From Urbifossiella limnaea (GTDB lineage: Bacteria > Planctomycetota > Planctomycetia > Gemmatales > Gemmataceae), in assembly GCF_007747215.1 (NCBI RefSeq), contig NZ_CP036273.1:4014322-4078321 (forward strand): a stretch of 64,000 nt of DNA. Direction: 5' to 3'. Below, piece by piece: positions 16,778 through 61,517 of the stretch. Within the stretch, counting starts at the first letter, position 1, and each line of letters begins with the position of its first letter. A model generated the notes under the pieces. It did no database searches. It saw only the letters and a list, made by a program, of their open reading frames with translations, and had not been told where the DNA came from. A program made the translations under genes and the position numbers.

Positions 16778-16805
16778 AAGCCCGGGGACGGCCGTCCCCG
16801 GGCTT
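16778..16805. terminator. perfect 28-bp palindrome
   Basis: 14-bp arms (AAGCCCGGGGACGG and its complement) with no loop bases. It lies 20 bp beyond the stop of the leftward DUF4139-like gene and before the isomerase start. It fits a strong hairpin terminator, without a clear U-tract. Confidence 0.6.
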
Positions 16806-27754: not shown

Positions 27755-27785
27755 AAGCCCACCGGCCGCGGCCGGTGGGCTTTTT
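27755..27785. terminator. strong rho-independent terminator
   Basis: A perfect 28-bp palindrome (AAGCCCACCGGCCG and its complement, 27755-27782) runs into TTTTT on the plus strand. It ends the small membrane-protein transcript and may also stop the convergent ABC transcript. Confidence 0.85.
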
Positions 27786-45728: not shown

Positions 45729-45764
45729 TTGCGGCTTAGCGGCGTCGACGCCGCTAAGCCGCAA
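45729..45764. repeat. perfect 36-bp palindrome, REP-like
   Basis: 18-nt arms with no loop; the outer part TTGCGGC and AGCCGCAA flanks TAGCGGCG. It lies 5 bp past the TPR gene stop. The flanking GCCGCAAGCGGC resembles the arm ends of the palindrome at 57674. Confidence 0.75.
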
Positions 45765-45783
45765 GCGGCCAAGCCCCGAGCCG

Positions 45784-55498: not shown

Positions 55499-56956
55499 AT
55501 GCACACCCCGCAACTCGCCCGCGTCCTCGGGCCGTGGATGGCCGCCGCGATCGTCGTCGGCACGGTCATCGGCTCGGGCGTGTTCAAGAAGGCCCGCAAC
55601 GTCGCCGAGAACGTCCCCGAGACCGGCCTCGCACTCAGCGTGTGGGTGCTCGGCGGCGTCCTCGCGCTGCTGGGGGCGCTCGCCTACGCCGAGGTGGCGA
55701 CGCTGTTCCCGCGGGCCGGGGGCAACTACGTGTTCCTGCGGGAGGCCTACGGCCGCATGGCCGGGTTCCTGTGGGGCTGGGTCGAGTTCTGGATCATCCG
55801 CACCGGCTCGATCGCCGCCCTGGCGACGATGTTCACCGAGTCCTTCCACGACGTGCTGCGGCAGGCGCTGTACCCGGGCCAGTCGGTCGAGGTGCTGGCG
55901 TTCTGGCCGCGGCAGGCGCTCACCGTGCTGGTCATTGCCGCGCTCGCGGCTCTGAACGCCCGCGGCACGATTCTCGGCGGCCGGCTGCAAGTCGTCGTCA
56001 CGACCGTGAAGGTGGGTTCGCTTCTGCTGATCGTCACGCTGCCGTTCGCGGTGCTGGCGCTCGTCAGCGAGCCGAGCCACCCGCCGCGGGCGGAGTACCT
56101 CTCGCCGCCGTGGCCGGGGTCGTTCGGCGGCGTGAACTGGAGCCTCTACGGTGCGGCGCTCGTGGGCGTGCTGTGGGCGTACCACGGGTGGATGAACATC
56201 GCCCCGGTCGCCGAGGAGGTGACCGACCCGCAGCGGAACATCCCGCGCGCCCTGCTCGGCGGCGTGCTGCTGCTCGTGGCGCTGTACTGCGGCGCGAACC
56301 TGGCGTACTACCTCGTCATCCCCCGCGAGGAGATGCGCGAGCTGCGGAACACGACGGTCGCGACCGAGTTCTGCCTGCGGCTGCTCGGGCCCGTCGGTAG
56401 CCTGCTGGCGTCGGGGATCGTGATGACCTCCGTGTTCGGCTCGCTGAACGGCAACCTGCTCGTCGGCCCGCGGCTGCTGTTCGCCATGGGCAAAGACCGG
56501 CTTGCGCCGGCGGCGCTGCAGCGGCTCCACCCGTCGTTCGGCACGCCAGCGCTGGCCATCGGCGTACTCGCCGGGTGGTCGTGCCTCACGGTGCTGGGCG
56601 TCGGCGCGCTGACGCAGTACCGCCTGCCCGTCGTCCTCGGCCTCGACCTCAACCTGCCGGCGAACAAGGCGCCGTTCGACGTGGTGACCGACTTCGCCAT
56701 GTTCGGCGCGGTCGCGTTCGAGACGCTGGCGGTTGCGTCGATTTTCGTCTTCCGCTACCGCTTACCGACAGCCGACCGGCCGTACCGCTGCTGGGGATAC
56801 CCTGTGGTGCCGGCCGTCTACTGCCTCCTGATGGCGGCGGTGCTGGCGAACATGTTCATGACCCCCGAGCAACGGAGCGAGGCGCGGATCGGCCTCGGCT
56901 TCATGGGGGTCGGCGTCGGCGTCTACCTGTTGGCCTACCGGTGGCGCGGGGAATGA
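55499..56956 (+). CDS. APC-family amino acid permease
   Basis: 485 aa with about 12 hydrophobic helices, an inner-membrane secondary transporter. The APC fingerprint GTVIGSGVF (21-29) lies in the first helix, followed by AYAEVATLFPRAGGNYVFLREAYG and WGWVEFWIIRTGSIAALA. It imports an amino acid or polyamine with a cation. Its last four bases overlap the start of the PhyH gene (ATGA), an operon pair. The substrate cannot be told from the sequence. Confidence 0.92.
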   Translation: MHTPQLARVLGPWMAAAIVVGTVIGSGVFKKARNVAENVPETGLALSVWVLGGVLALLGALAYAEVATLFPRAGGNYVFLREAYGRMAGFLWGWVEFWIIRTGSIAALATMFTESFHDVLRQALYPGQSVEVLAFWPRQALTVLVIAALAALNARGTILGGRLQVVVTTVKVGSLLLIVTLPFAVLALVSEPSHPPRAEYLSPPWPGSFGGVNWSLYGAALVGVLWAYHGWMNIAPVAEEVTDPQRNIPRALLGGVLLLVALYCGANLAYYLVIPREEMRELRNTTVATEFCLRLLGPVGSLLASGIVMTSVFGSLNGNLLVGPRLLFAMGKDRLAPAALQRLHPSFGTPALAIGVLAGWSCLTVLGVGALTQYRLPVVLGLDLNLPANKAPFDVVTDFAMFGAVAFETLAVASIFVFRYRLPTADRPYRCWGYPVVPAVYCLLMAAVLANMFMTPEQRSEARIGLGFMGVGVGVYLLAYRWRGE

Positions 56957-57666
56957 CCACACTCGCCGCGGACGGCTTCGTGTTGCTCCCGGCCGTGTTC
57001 GACGCCGCGGCTGTTGCCGACGTCCGCGCCGCCTGTGACACCGCGTTGTCACGTCACGCCGGTGACCCCGCGATCCTGGCCGACCCGACCGGGGCCGTGA
57101 GCGGGGCCCGCGACCTGTTCCGCCTCTGGCCCGGCGCCGCCGAACTGGCCCGAGCTCCGGCGCTGCGGGACGCGCTGATCGCGGCGCTGGGTGCGGGTGC
57201 CGGCGTCGTGCGTGGGTTGTACTTCGACAAGCCGCCGGGCCACGGGTGGGCGCTGCCGTGGCACAAAGACTACACCGTGGCCGTACGGGCGCACGGCCCA
57301 CTCGGCCGATTCCGGAAGCCGACCACGAAGGCCGGCATCCCGCACCTCGAAGCACCGACGGAGTTGCTGTCGCGGATGCTGACGGCGCGAGTCCACCTCG
57401 ACGACATGACCGACGAGAACGGCCCGCTGCGAGTCGTCCCCGGTTCGCACCGCTTCGACCGCACCGCCGCCGACGAGCCGCGGCCGCCGGTCGTCGTGCA
57501 CTGCCGGGCCGGCGACGTGCTGTTGATGCGGCCGTTGCTGACGCACGCCAGCGGCCACGCCGACGCGGCGACAGCACGGCACCGGCGGATCGTTCACCTG
57601 GAGTGCGCCCCCGCGGGGGCGCTGGAAGACGGGTACGAGTGGCGTGAGTTCTTGGATTTGTCGTGA
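56953..57666 (+). CDS. phytanoyl-CoA dioxygenase family protein (PhyH)
   Basis: 237 aa. Non-haem Fe(II)/2-oxoglutarate dioxygenase fold: LPWHKDYTV gives the HxD iron pair (His104, Asp106), a later LLTHASGHA supplies the distal His (198), and an Arg (about 212) binds 2-oxoglutarate. The family hydroxylates lipids, amino acids or antibiotics. The overlap with the APC permease gene suggests that the transported compound may be its substrate. That link is inference. A 46-bp perfect palindrome follows the stop. Confidence 0.87.
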   Translation: MTTLAADGFVLLPAVFDAAAVADVRAACDTALSRHAGDPAILADPTGAVSGARDLFRLWPGAAELARAPALRDALIAALGAGAGVVRGLYFDKPPGHGWALPWHKDYTVAVRAHGPLGRFRKPTTKAGIPHLEAPTELLSRMLTARVHLDDMTDENGPLRVVPGSHRFDRTAADEPRPPVVVHCRAGDVLLMRPLLTHASGHADAATARHRRIVHLECAPAGALEDGYEWREFLDLS

Positions 57667-57673
57667 AGAGAAG

Positions 57674-57719
57674 TCGCCGCTTGCGGCGTAGCACCGCGGT
57701 GCTACGCCGCAAGCGGCGA
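57674..57719. repeat. perfect 46-bp palindrome, REP-like
   Basis: 23-nt arms, no mismatch, no loop. Arm ends read TCGCCGCTTGCGGC and its complement. It lies 8 bp past the PhyH stop and 12 bp before the convergent hypothetical's stop. The core CGCCGCAAGCGGCG resembles sequence near 45760. Confidence 0.8.
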
Positions 57720-57730
57720 AGCCCGGAACC

Positions 57731-58276
57731 CTACTTCTTCTTCCGCTTCGGCTTCTCCGCCGGCGGCTCGGGCGGCCGCGGGGCCGGCTTCGTCACCCGT
57801 GGCGCGGTCGCCGACGGAGCCACCACGAACCCGTGCGGCCTCAGTAGCGGCGTCAGGAGGTCCGCCTGCGCCGACGCCTCCGCGGAGTCGACACGGGCCA
57901 GCGCGATGGCGGAGTACCAGAACCGTTCACGGTCGCGCGGCGAGAGCGAGTCCGGGTCGGCGCCGAACTCGCGGACAAGTTCTCGGTCGTAGCGCAGCTC
58001 CTTCAGCACCGCGGCCGCCTCGCGCCACGTCAGCCCGCGCGACAGGACCGCCCCCGCCCCGTCGGACACGGTCCGGCCGATGGCGATGTGAAGCAGCCCG
58101 CGAAATCGGCCCGCCGCGAGCCCCGCGTCGCGGGCGGTGTCGAGCAGGCGGCGGATTCCCTCCATGCCCACGCTCCGATCGCTCGCCGGGTCGGCCGCCG
58201 GGGCCGCCGGCGGGGGAAGGATGCGGTTCGCGGCCGGGGCGACTACAGCCGGCACGGTCCGATACATCTCGCCCAT
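57731..58276 (-). CDS. hypothetical protein with basic C-terminus
   Basis: 181 aa. A Pro/Ala-rich N-terminus, a helical centre (about 35-130, GIRRLLDTARDAGLAAGRFR) and a Pro- and Lys-rich tail (AEKPKRKKK). No signal, no membrane segment, no recognised domain. The centre resembles a compact helix bundle. It may bind nucleic acid, but nothing in the sequence proves it. Leftward, in front of the thiamine synthase gene, which it does not share an operon with (the thiamine gene is upstream and ends 72 bp from its start). Confidence 0.6.
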   Translation of the reverse strand: MGEMYRTVPAVVAPAANRILPPPAAPAADPASDRSVGMEGIRRLLDTARDAGLAAGRFRGLLHIAIGRTVSDGAGAVLSRGLTWREAAAVLKELRYDRELVREFGADPDSLSPRDRERFWYSAIALARVDSAEASAQADLLTPLLRPHGFVVAPSATAPRVTKPAPRPPEPPAEKPKRKKK

Positions 58277-61461: not shown

Positions 61462-61517
61462 GAAATTCGAAGTCCGAAATTCGAACTCCGGGCTTCGAAT
61501 TTCGGACTTCGAATTTC
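61462..61517. repeat. perfect inverted repeat, 24-nt arms, A/T-rich
   Basis: Arms at 61462-61485 and 61494-61517 match perfectly around the 8-nt loop CTCCGGGC. Each arm contains the word AAATTCGAA. It is unlike the GC-rich surroundings. It sits between the TolC-like gene and the PhnD-like gene and is likely a terminator and a dispersed element. Confidence 0.85.

Follow-up and report, generated by a model that had tools for sequence, protein, structure and literature searches.

Strict REPs carry an unpaired GTAG or GTGG tag (PMC2817692, PMC3116915 and PMC3686654, in the portions of text covered), and partial replacement of old REP variants by novel ones is described for pseudomonads and stenotrophomonads in the covered part of PMC3686654. 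TIRtrons, as presented in the portion of PMC3733652 covered, consist of a Y1 HUH transposase gene with inverted repeats on its flanks; these repeats are unrelated to GTAG REPs and form dispersed families, often as dimers. Reports of class 3 TnpA-Y1 come mainly from Planctomycetes, Acidobacteria and Proteobacteria (PMC6006769, covered portion). What REP-like elements do for their hosts is an old question, and the palindrome family described here, named F1, bears on it. The analysis started from a 64,000-nt stretch (the window, C1:4014322-4078321) of a genome, G000, which consists of the single contig C1 of 7,795,793 bp and which the best named relatives of a protein encoded beside the palindrome place in Gemmataceae.

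A perfect palindrome between convergent genes

The longest loop-free palindrome in the window lies at 57674-57719. Its 46 bp equal their own reverse complement, which confirms the perfect, loop-free palindrome with 23-nt arms between convergent genes that a sequence-only reading of the window had described. Arms of this length are far beyond chance, as loop-free arms did not exceed 14 nt in 50 order-3 Markov simulations of the window. The palindrome fills most of the 64-bp gap between a predicted 237-aa gene at 56953-57666 (+), whose relatives were used for locating orthologous loci, and a 181-aa gene at 57731-58276 (−), which is kept beside the first in some relatives. It begins 7 nt after the stop codon of the former, and the stop codon of the latter lies 11 nt past the palindrome. 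The 237-aa product is putatively a phytanoyl-CoA dioxygenase-like protein. Two cores occupy the arms, one at 57676-57687 (−), where the plus strand reads GCCGCTTGCGGC, and the other, GCCGCAAGCGGC, at 57706-57717 (+); the interior between them (57688-57705) is self-complementary and varies between copies. The predicted RNA fold of 57674-57719 has an energy of −47.3 kcal/mol (z −8.27). The minus strand of this copy has a T-rich tail and was flagged by a terminator scan, and Rfam gave no match at the gathering threshold in the 64-kb window.

A left-truncated member of the same family lies between convergent genes at 45729-45769. Its perfect 36-bp palindrome spans 45729-45764, and the full GCCGCAAGCGGC core is present solely at the right end (45758-45769), reaching 5 nt past the perfect palindrome. 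The left end begins TTGCGGC and lacks the outer part of the core, so the proposal that the ends of the two palindromes share a core holds in full for the right end only. Within the window the core is weakly enriched (six sites with at most one mismatch versus 2.69 expected, a count reached in 5 of 100 shuffles); the enrichment is visible genome-wide. Short perfect palindromes of the form AAGCCC...GGGCTT were also seen at 16778-16805 and 27755-27782. Hairpins like these recur in G000, some followed by T, and resemble ordinary terminators.

Copies and anatomy of the F1 family

G000 contains 73 sites with the core GCCGCTTGCGGC paired in inverted orientation as GCCGCTTGCGGC...GCCGCAAGCGGC, and the reversed control contains none. 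A dispersed REP-like family had been proposed from the window, with a genome-wide search as the check and a unique hairpin as the alternative outcome; the 73 pairs bear the proposal out. Single cores number 252, versus 78 in the reversed control. Two regions picked irrespective of F1, C1:1-400000 and C1:3900001-4355000, of which the second surrounds the window, together contain 14 exact and 23 relaxed pairs, from which a rough estimate of about 120 relaxed pairs in G000 (73 × 23/14) was made. The 50 of 73 exact pairs listed, which extend up to 5.62 Mb, comprise 28 in 0-2 Mb, 10 in 2-4 Mb and 12 in 4-5.62 Mb, and the other 23 must therefore lie beyond. Between 0 and 2 Mb (28 copies) the density of F1 is roughly three times that between 2 and 4 Mb (10 copies).

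For the anatomy of the family, 70 relaxed-core elements were extracted from 1.655 Mb of sequence, part of which had been fetched around known copies. These contain 62 distinct interiors. The first inner pair is Watson–Crick in 68 of the 70 and the third in 65, versus expected fractions of 0.49 and 0.43, respectively, if the two sides were unlinked, and both positions show several pair types. F1 is kept in sequence at the core and in complementarity in the interior. Palindromes that are perfect from core to core, centre included, account for 10 of the 70 elements. Outside the cores, pairing exceeds expectation mainly at the first position (0.73 versus 0.52) and slightly up to the sixth; with the excess so confined, locus-specific outer stems were dropped as a general F1 trait. 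In 27 elements, the six bases that directly follow the left core on its 3' side are GTAGCG. None of the 70 palindromes has an unpaired GTAG or GTGG at its 5' end; the positions adjoining the core are paired and variable. The family is accordingly REP-like, as proposed, and not a strict REP.

An F1-adjoining transposase gene

G000 contains three genes matching Pfam Y1_Tnp (PF01797), none of which adjoins F1, and this at first pointed against a link to a RAYT. Two of the three have other palindrome families on both flanks and the third has one upstream palindrome. The same profile missed a further gene, at C1:388355-389002. This gene was found with a protein from the relative G018, in which F1 cores flank a Y1-type gene interrupted by one in-frame stop; the G000 gene is 57% identical to it (E 3.9e-83) and encodes a RAYT-like HUH/tyrosine transposase of 216 aa. 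An F1 palindrome ends 24 nt upstream of the gene, and a half F1 copy begins 7 nt after its last sense codon. As a background rate, an F1 pair lies no more than 100 nt upstream of 14 of the 685 genes in the unselected stretches. An association with a RAYT/TnpA-REP gene, the other check suggested by the sequence-only reading, was thus found at this locus, and it recurs across Gemmataceae.

The best curated family of the 216-aa protein is NCBIfam REP_Tyr_transpos, the REP-associated tyrosine transposase (E 2.3e-8), at 34 bits against a cut-off of 80 bits; its Pfam Y1_Tnp score of 17.6 bits likewise lies below the cut-off of 23 bits. REP_Tyr_transpos was matched by all nine aligned members (the 216-aa protein and eight homologues), and a profile of this alignment matches solved IS200/IS605 transposases (2xm3, E 5.8e-6) and the solved TnpA-REP 4er8 only at E 0.089. 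H107, H109, Y169, N173 and P174 are invariant in the nine sequences, which have the predicted HUH histidines and catalytic tyrosine expected of a RAYT. The tyrosine motif is YIERNP and does not conform to the Y----Q of class 3. As expected of a single-copy gene, G000 gives one match at E 1e-20 or better; some other genomes give two to four, mostly more distant.

Linkage of F1 and the transposase across Gemmataceae

Co-occurrence was assessed in 95 Gemmataceae genomes, 27 of which contain an F1 pair. Close homologues of the transposase, defined by at least 54% identity (a limit set after the table had been viewed, the next full-length matches reaching at most 52%), are present in 16 genomes, two of them as partial matches. 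All 16 are F1-positive, none of the 68 F1-negative genomes has a close homologue, and 11 of the 79 genomes without one are F1-positive, among them G099 (50 pairs), G071 (29) and G020 (24). Fisher's test gives p 2e-11, which is not an independent-sample probability because the genomes are related. When any homologue at E 1e-20 or better is counted, 24 of 35 genomes with one are F1-positive, as are 3 of 60 without.

Fifteen close loci were examined, none being returned for the partial match in G083, and a core lies within 250 bp in 13, with the variants TCGCTTGCGGTTTAGC and TCCGCTTGCGGCTTAGCG at the other two. Full F1 copies stand on both sides of the gene at L289, L320, L324 and L325, and other loci have F1 on one side only or as half copies. 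At the 23 more distant loci, a lone core-like site was present in 1 and some other inverted repeat within 200 nt in 20. Three flank types, assigned by eye and leaving 5 of 37 tree rows without a group, map on the transposase tree with the smallest possible number of changes, 2 (shuffled mean 14.8, with 0 of 200 shuffles as low), and the F1 branch has support of 87/84. The transposase link is well supported, and F1 is very probably a REP-like, transposase-linked family of palindromes that belongs to the TIRtron type.

Several palindromes of other kinds were seen during this work. In L048 (the C1:986477 region of G000), a Y1 gene has GTTAGGCCGGGGCGCAAGCCCCG palindromes on both flanks, at L048:1361-1433 and 1906-1978; these palindromes form a second dispersed family, with 13 copies in 1.655 Mb. 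A third family, of GGCGAGCCGGGAGCGTGAGCGACCGGAG palindromes, flanks the Y1 gene of L047 (C1:6914170 region) on both sides, at L047:1126-1204 and 1844-1929. Nested palindromes, in which a GCAGGCTGAAGGCCTGC palindrome lies within a larger imperfect one, occur at C1:360576 and 1186357 and beside a Y1 gene in L046. Palindromes at the distant transposase homologues L304, L305, L311, L312, L336, L338, L340 and L341 have GTTTAG(C) or GTTAGC at or close to their start, which may be a foot specific to these homologues.

Placement of F1 at gene ends

Gene positions were taken from a home-made hexamer gene finder (1355 genes, 88% coding), with which some gap types may be wrong. By this annotation, 22 of 68 F1 inverted repeats fall between convergent genes, 37 between tandem genes and 8 between divergent ones, and the last lies within a predicted gene; the corresponding totals of gaps of at least 40 nt are 133, 546 and 224. 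With 67 of 68 intergenic, F1 consists of many dispersed extragenic palindromes, as expected of REPs. The median distance to the nearest stop codon is 6 nt for the 59 copies with a gene reading towards them, and 55 of these lie within 20 nt of the stop, versus 36.5 if they were evenly placed in their own gaps. A U-run following the hairpin was not found as a family trait, the T fraction not exceeding 0.32 at any of 16 positions (n = 94). Inverted repeats at gene ends are also common outside the family: a score of at least 10 was reached in 67% of 100 F1-free convergent gaps and in 1.3% after shuffling. In addition, long inverted repeats with arms made of 7- or 8-nt words (for example AATGACG or GAAGGGGT repeats) were seen near gene ends at 61462-61517 of the window, at C1:53678, 322472 and 282806 in G000 and at several loci of the relative G001; no transposase link was seen at those loci.

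Hairpins at orthologous gene ends

Orthologous gene ends offer a natural way to test if hosts recruit selfish palindromes as signals at the ends of their genes. G001, the nearest relative compared, has two F1 pairs and no transposase homologue at E 1e-20. A first comparison of orthologous gaps, with loops of up to 24 nt and a threshold of 11, was not significant (p 0.23 for 25 gaps; p 0.059 for tandem gaps). A second used more sequence, loops of up to 80 nt and a threshold of 12, settings that were changed after the first outcome, and covered 48 G001 gaps from 638 kb, including regions chosen for F1 in G000. In the 38 non-divergent gaps, an inverted repeat was present in both species in 14, in G000 only in 7, in G001 only in 2 and in neither in 15, a joint presence with p 0.0009 (p 0.0001 and 0.0014 by permutation within gap-length classes). 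The 10 divergent gaps contain an inverted repeat in none of the G000 and two of the G001 sequences.

The repeats shared in position are mostly unrelated in sequence. In 12 of the 14 shared gaps, the arms are no more alike than shuffled arms within 2 s.d.; arms are clearly related in gap 487698 and fairly so in 85014. Ten gaps contain F1 or a variant in G000, and their G001 counterparts have an unrelated inverted repeat in seven, a related one in one and none above threshold in two. One of these two is the orthologue of the 57674-57719 site, where G001 has a short hairpin below threshold. Two G001 families found at such sites (gaps 370139 and 90033) are, by inspection, also present downstream of the G001 Y1 genes L297 and L309. 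Orthologous gene ends thus tend to keep a hairpin and not its sequence, and with unrelated palindromes at the same gene ends of sister species the hairpins look exchangeable. The orthologue of gap 90033 in G001 also contains a nested palindrome pair.

Proposed explanation and alternatives

Taken as a whole, the explanation we lean towards is that these hairpins are spread by a transposase, take up positions at gene ends and probably act there as exchangeable structures. On this explanation the palindrome at 57674-57719 is one copy of a dispersed, non-autonomous palindromic element, F1, which belongs with the REP-associated-type Y1 HUH transposase encoded elsewhere, at C1:388355-389002, between F1 sequences. 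Judging from known IS200/IS605 and RAYT enzymes, the transposase probably acts on single-stranded DNA, recognizing the conserved 12-nt arms of the core and moving or copying F1 in trans. Most copies are found directly after stop codons, in convergent or tandem gaps, where the F1 RNA is predicted to fold into a very stable hairpin. This hairpin most likely serves to terminate or protect transcripts from the genes on either side, and the other palindromes at the same gene ends in the sister species suggest that it can be exchanged. Given a transposase-linked family, we consider it rather likely that F1 hairpins act at gene ends, on account of where they lie, of the complementarity that they retain and of unrelated hairpins recurring at corresponding gene ends; the role we infer is terminator-like. 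Counting against this explanation are the 8 of 68 copies in divergent gaps and the one inside a predicted gene, the 11 F1-positive genomes without a close homologue, the transposase scores below the NCBIfam and Pfam cut-offs and the weak match to the solved TnpA-REP, the want of a family U-run, the sub-threshold hairpin of G001 at the 57674-57719 orthologue and the non-significant first gap comparison. The mobile reading is weakened in that neither movement of F1 nor a clean empty F1 site with a defined junction was seen. More tentatively, several transposases may each spread a palindrome family of their own, the host using whichever lands as a gene-end (terminator or mRNA-end) structure; families would then replace one another between species, with position and structure kept and sequence swapped wholesale.

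That the hairpin is useless to the host seems to us on the unlikely side. F1 would then be a purely selfish family, spread by its transposase and persisting behind stop codons where it does little harm. The transposase link accords with such a family, as do the gene-end preference reported for REPs at large (PMC3733652, covered portion) and the orthologous gaps in which just one of the two species has an inverted repeat (7 and 2 of 38), but the two species share gene ends with unrelated inverted repeats more often than expected, also within gap-length classes. The interior also keeps its complementarity while its sequence changes, although a mobile hairpin could need this for its own movement. 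Improbable in our view are ordinary bidirectional terminators built by selection alone, with the core a favoured stem and the transposase incidental: an identical 12-nt core forms 73 pairs and, across 95 genomes, goes with a single transposase clade, and the family lacks a U-run, all of which speaks against them, whereas placement at gene ends, the stable fold, the inverted repeats in 67% of the 100 F1-free convergent gaps (shuffled, 1.3%) and the T-rich minus-strand tail of the terminator-flagged copy at 57674-57719 would suit them. A DNA-uptake or other protein-binding word, its inverted pairs secondarily used as terminators, would share the short exact core and the many copies. We regard this as highly improbable, since 146 of the 252 cores sit in exact pairs and the remaining 106 compare with 78 in the reversed control, counts on which an uptake word was rejected. 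The explanation by transposase-spread, gene-end hairpins concerns a very regular Gemmataceae palindrome family that is tied to one RAYT-like transposase clade, with clean co-occurrence over 95 genomes.

Comparison with known systems

F1 shares with intrinsic terminators a strong GC-rich hairpin just behind stop codons and differs from them in having no family U-run and a shared core tied to a transposase. With class 3 TnpA-Y1 the likeness is in planctomycete Y1 genes flanked by atypical, possibly numerous secondary structures (PMC6006769, covered portion); the F1 transposase, with YIERNP in place of Y----Q, differs, and two other G000 Y1 genes, in L047 and L048, are, by inspection, nearer to class 3 by motif. 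As far as the portions of text covered extend, REPs, RAYTs and REPINs resemble F1 in their dispersed extragenic palindromes, in inverted pairs that fold into one long hairpin, in a distinctive transposase gene flanked by the repeats and in repeat and transposase apparently changing together. F1 departs from them in its lack of an unpaired GTAG/GTGG tag, in an interior that varies between copies yet stays paired and in a transposase below the curated REP_Tyr_transpos cut-off. Neither the core GCCGCTTGCGGC nor the replacement of one family by an unrelated one at orthologous gene ends is described in the portions of the literature covered.

The closest likeness is to the TIRtron/TIRYT arrangement, in which a Y1 transposase is likewise flanked by non-GTAG inverted repeats that form a dispersed family. 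F1 differs in its Gemmataceae host and its core, GCCGCTTGCGGC, in which, by inspection, the GGGGWSAS motif of some TIRs (PMC3733652, covered portion) is not found. Because strict REPs have an unpaired GTAG tag that F1 lacks, the TIRtron type fits F1 better than the strict REP.
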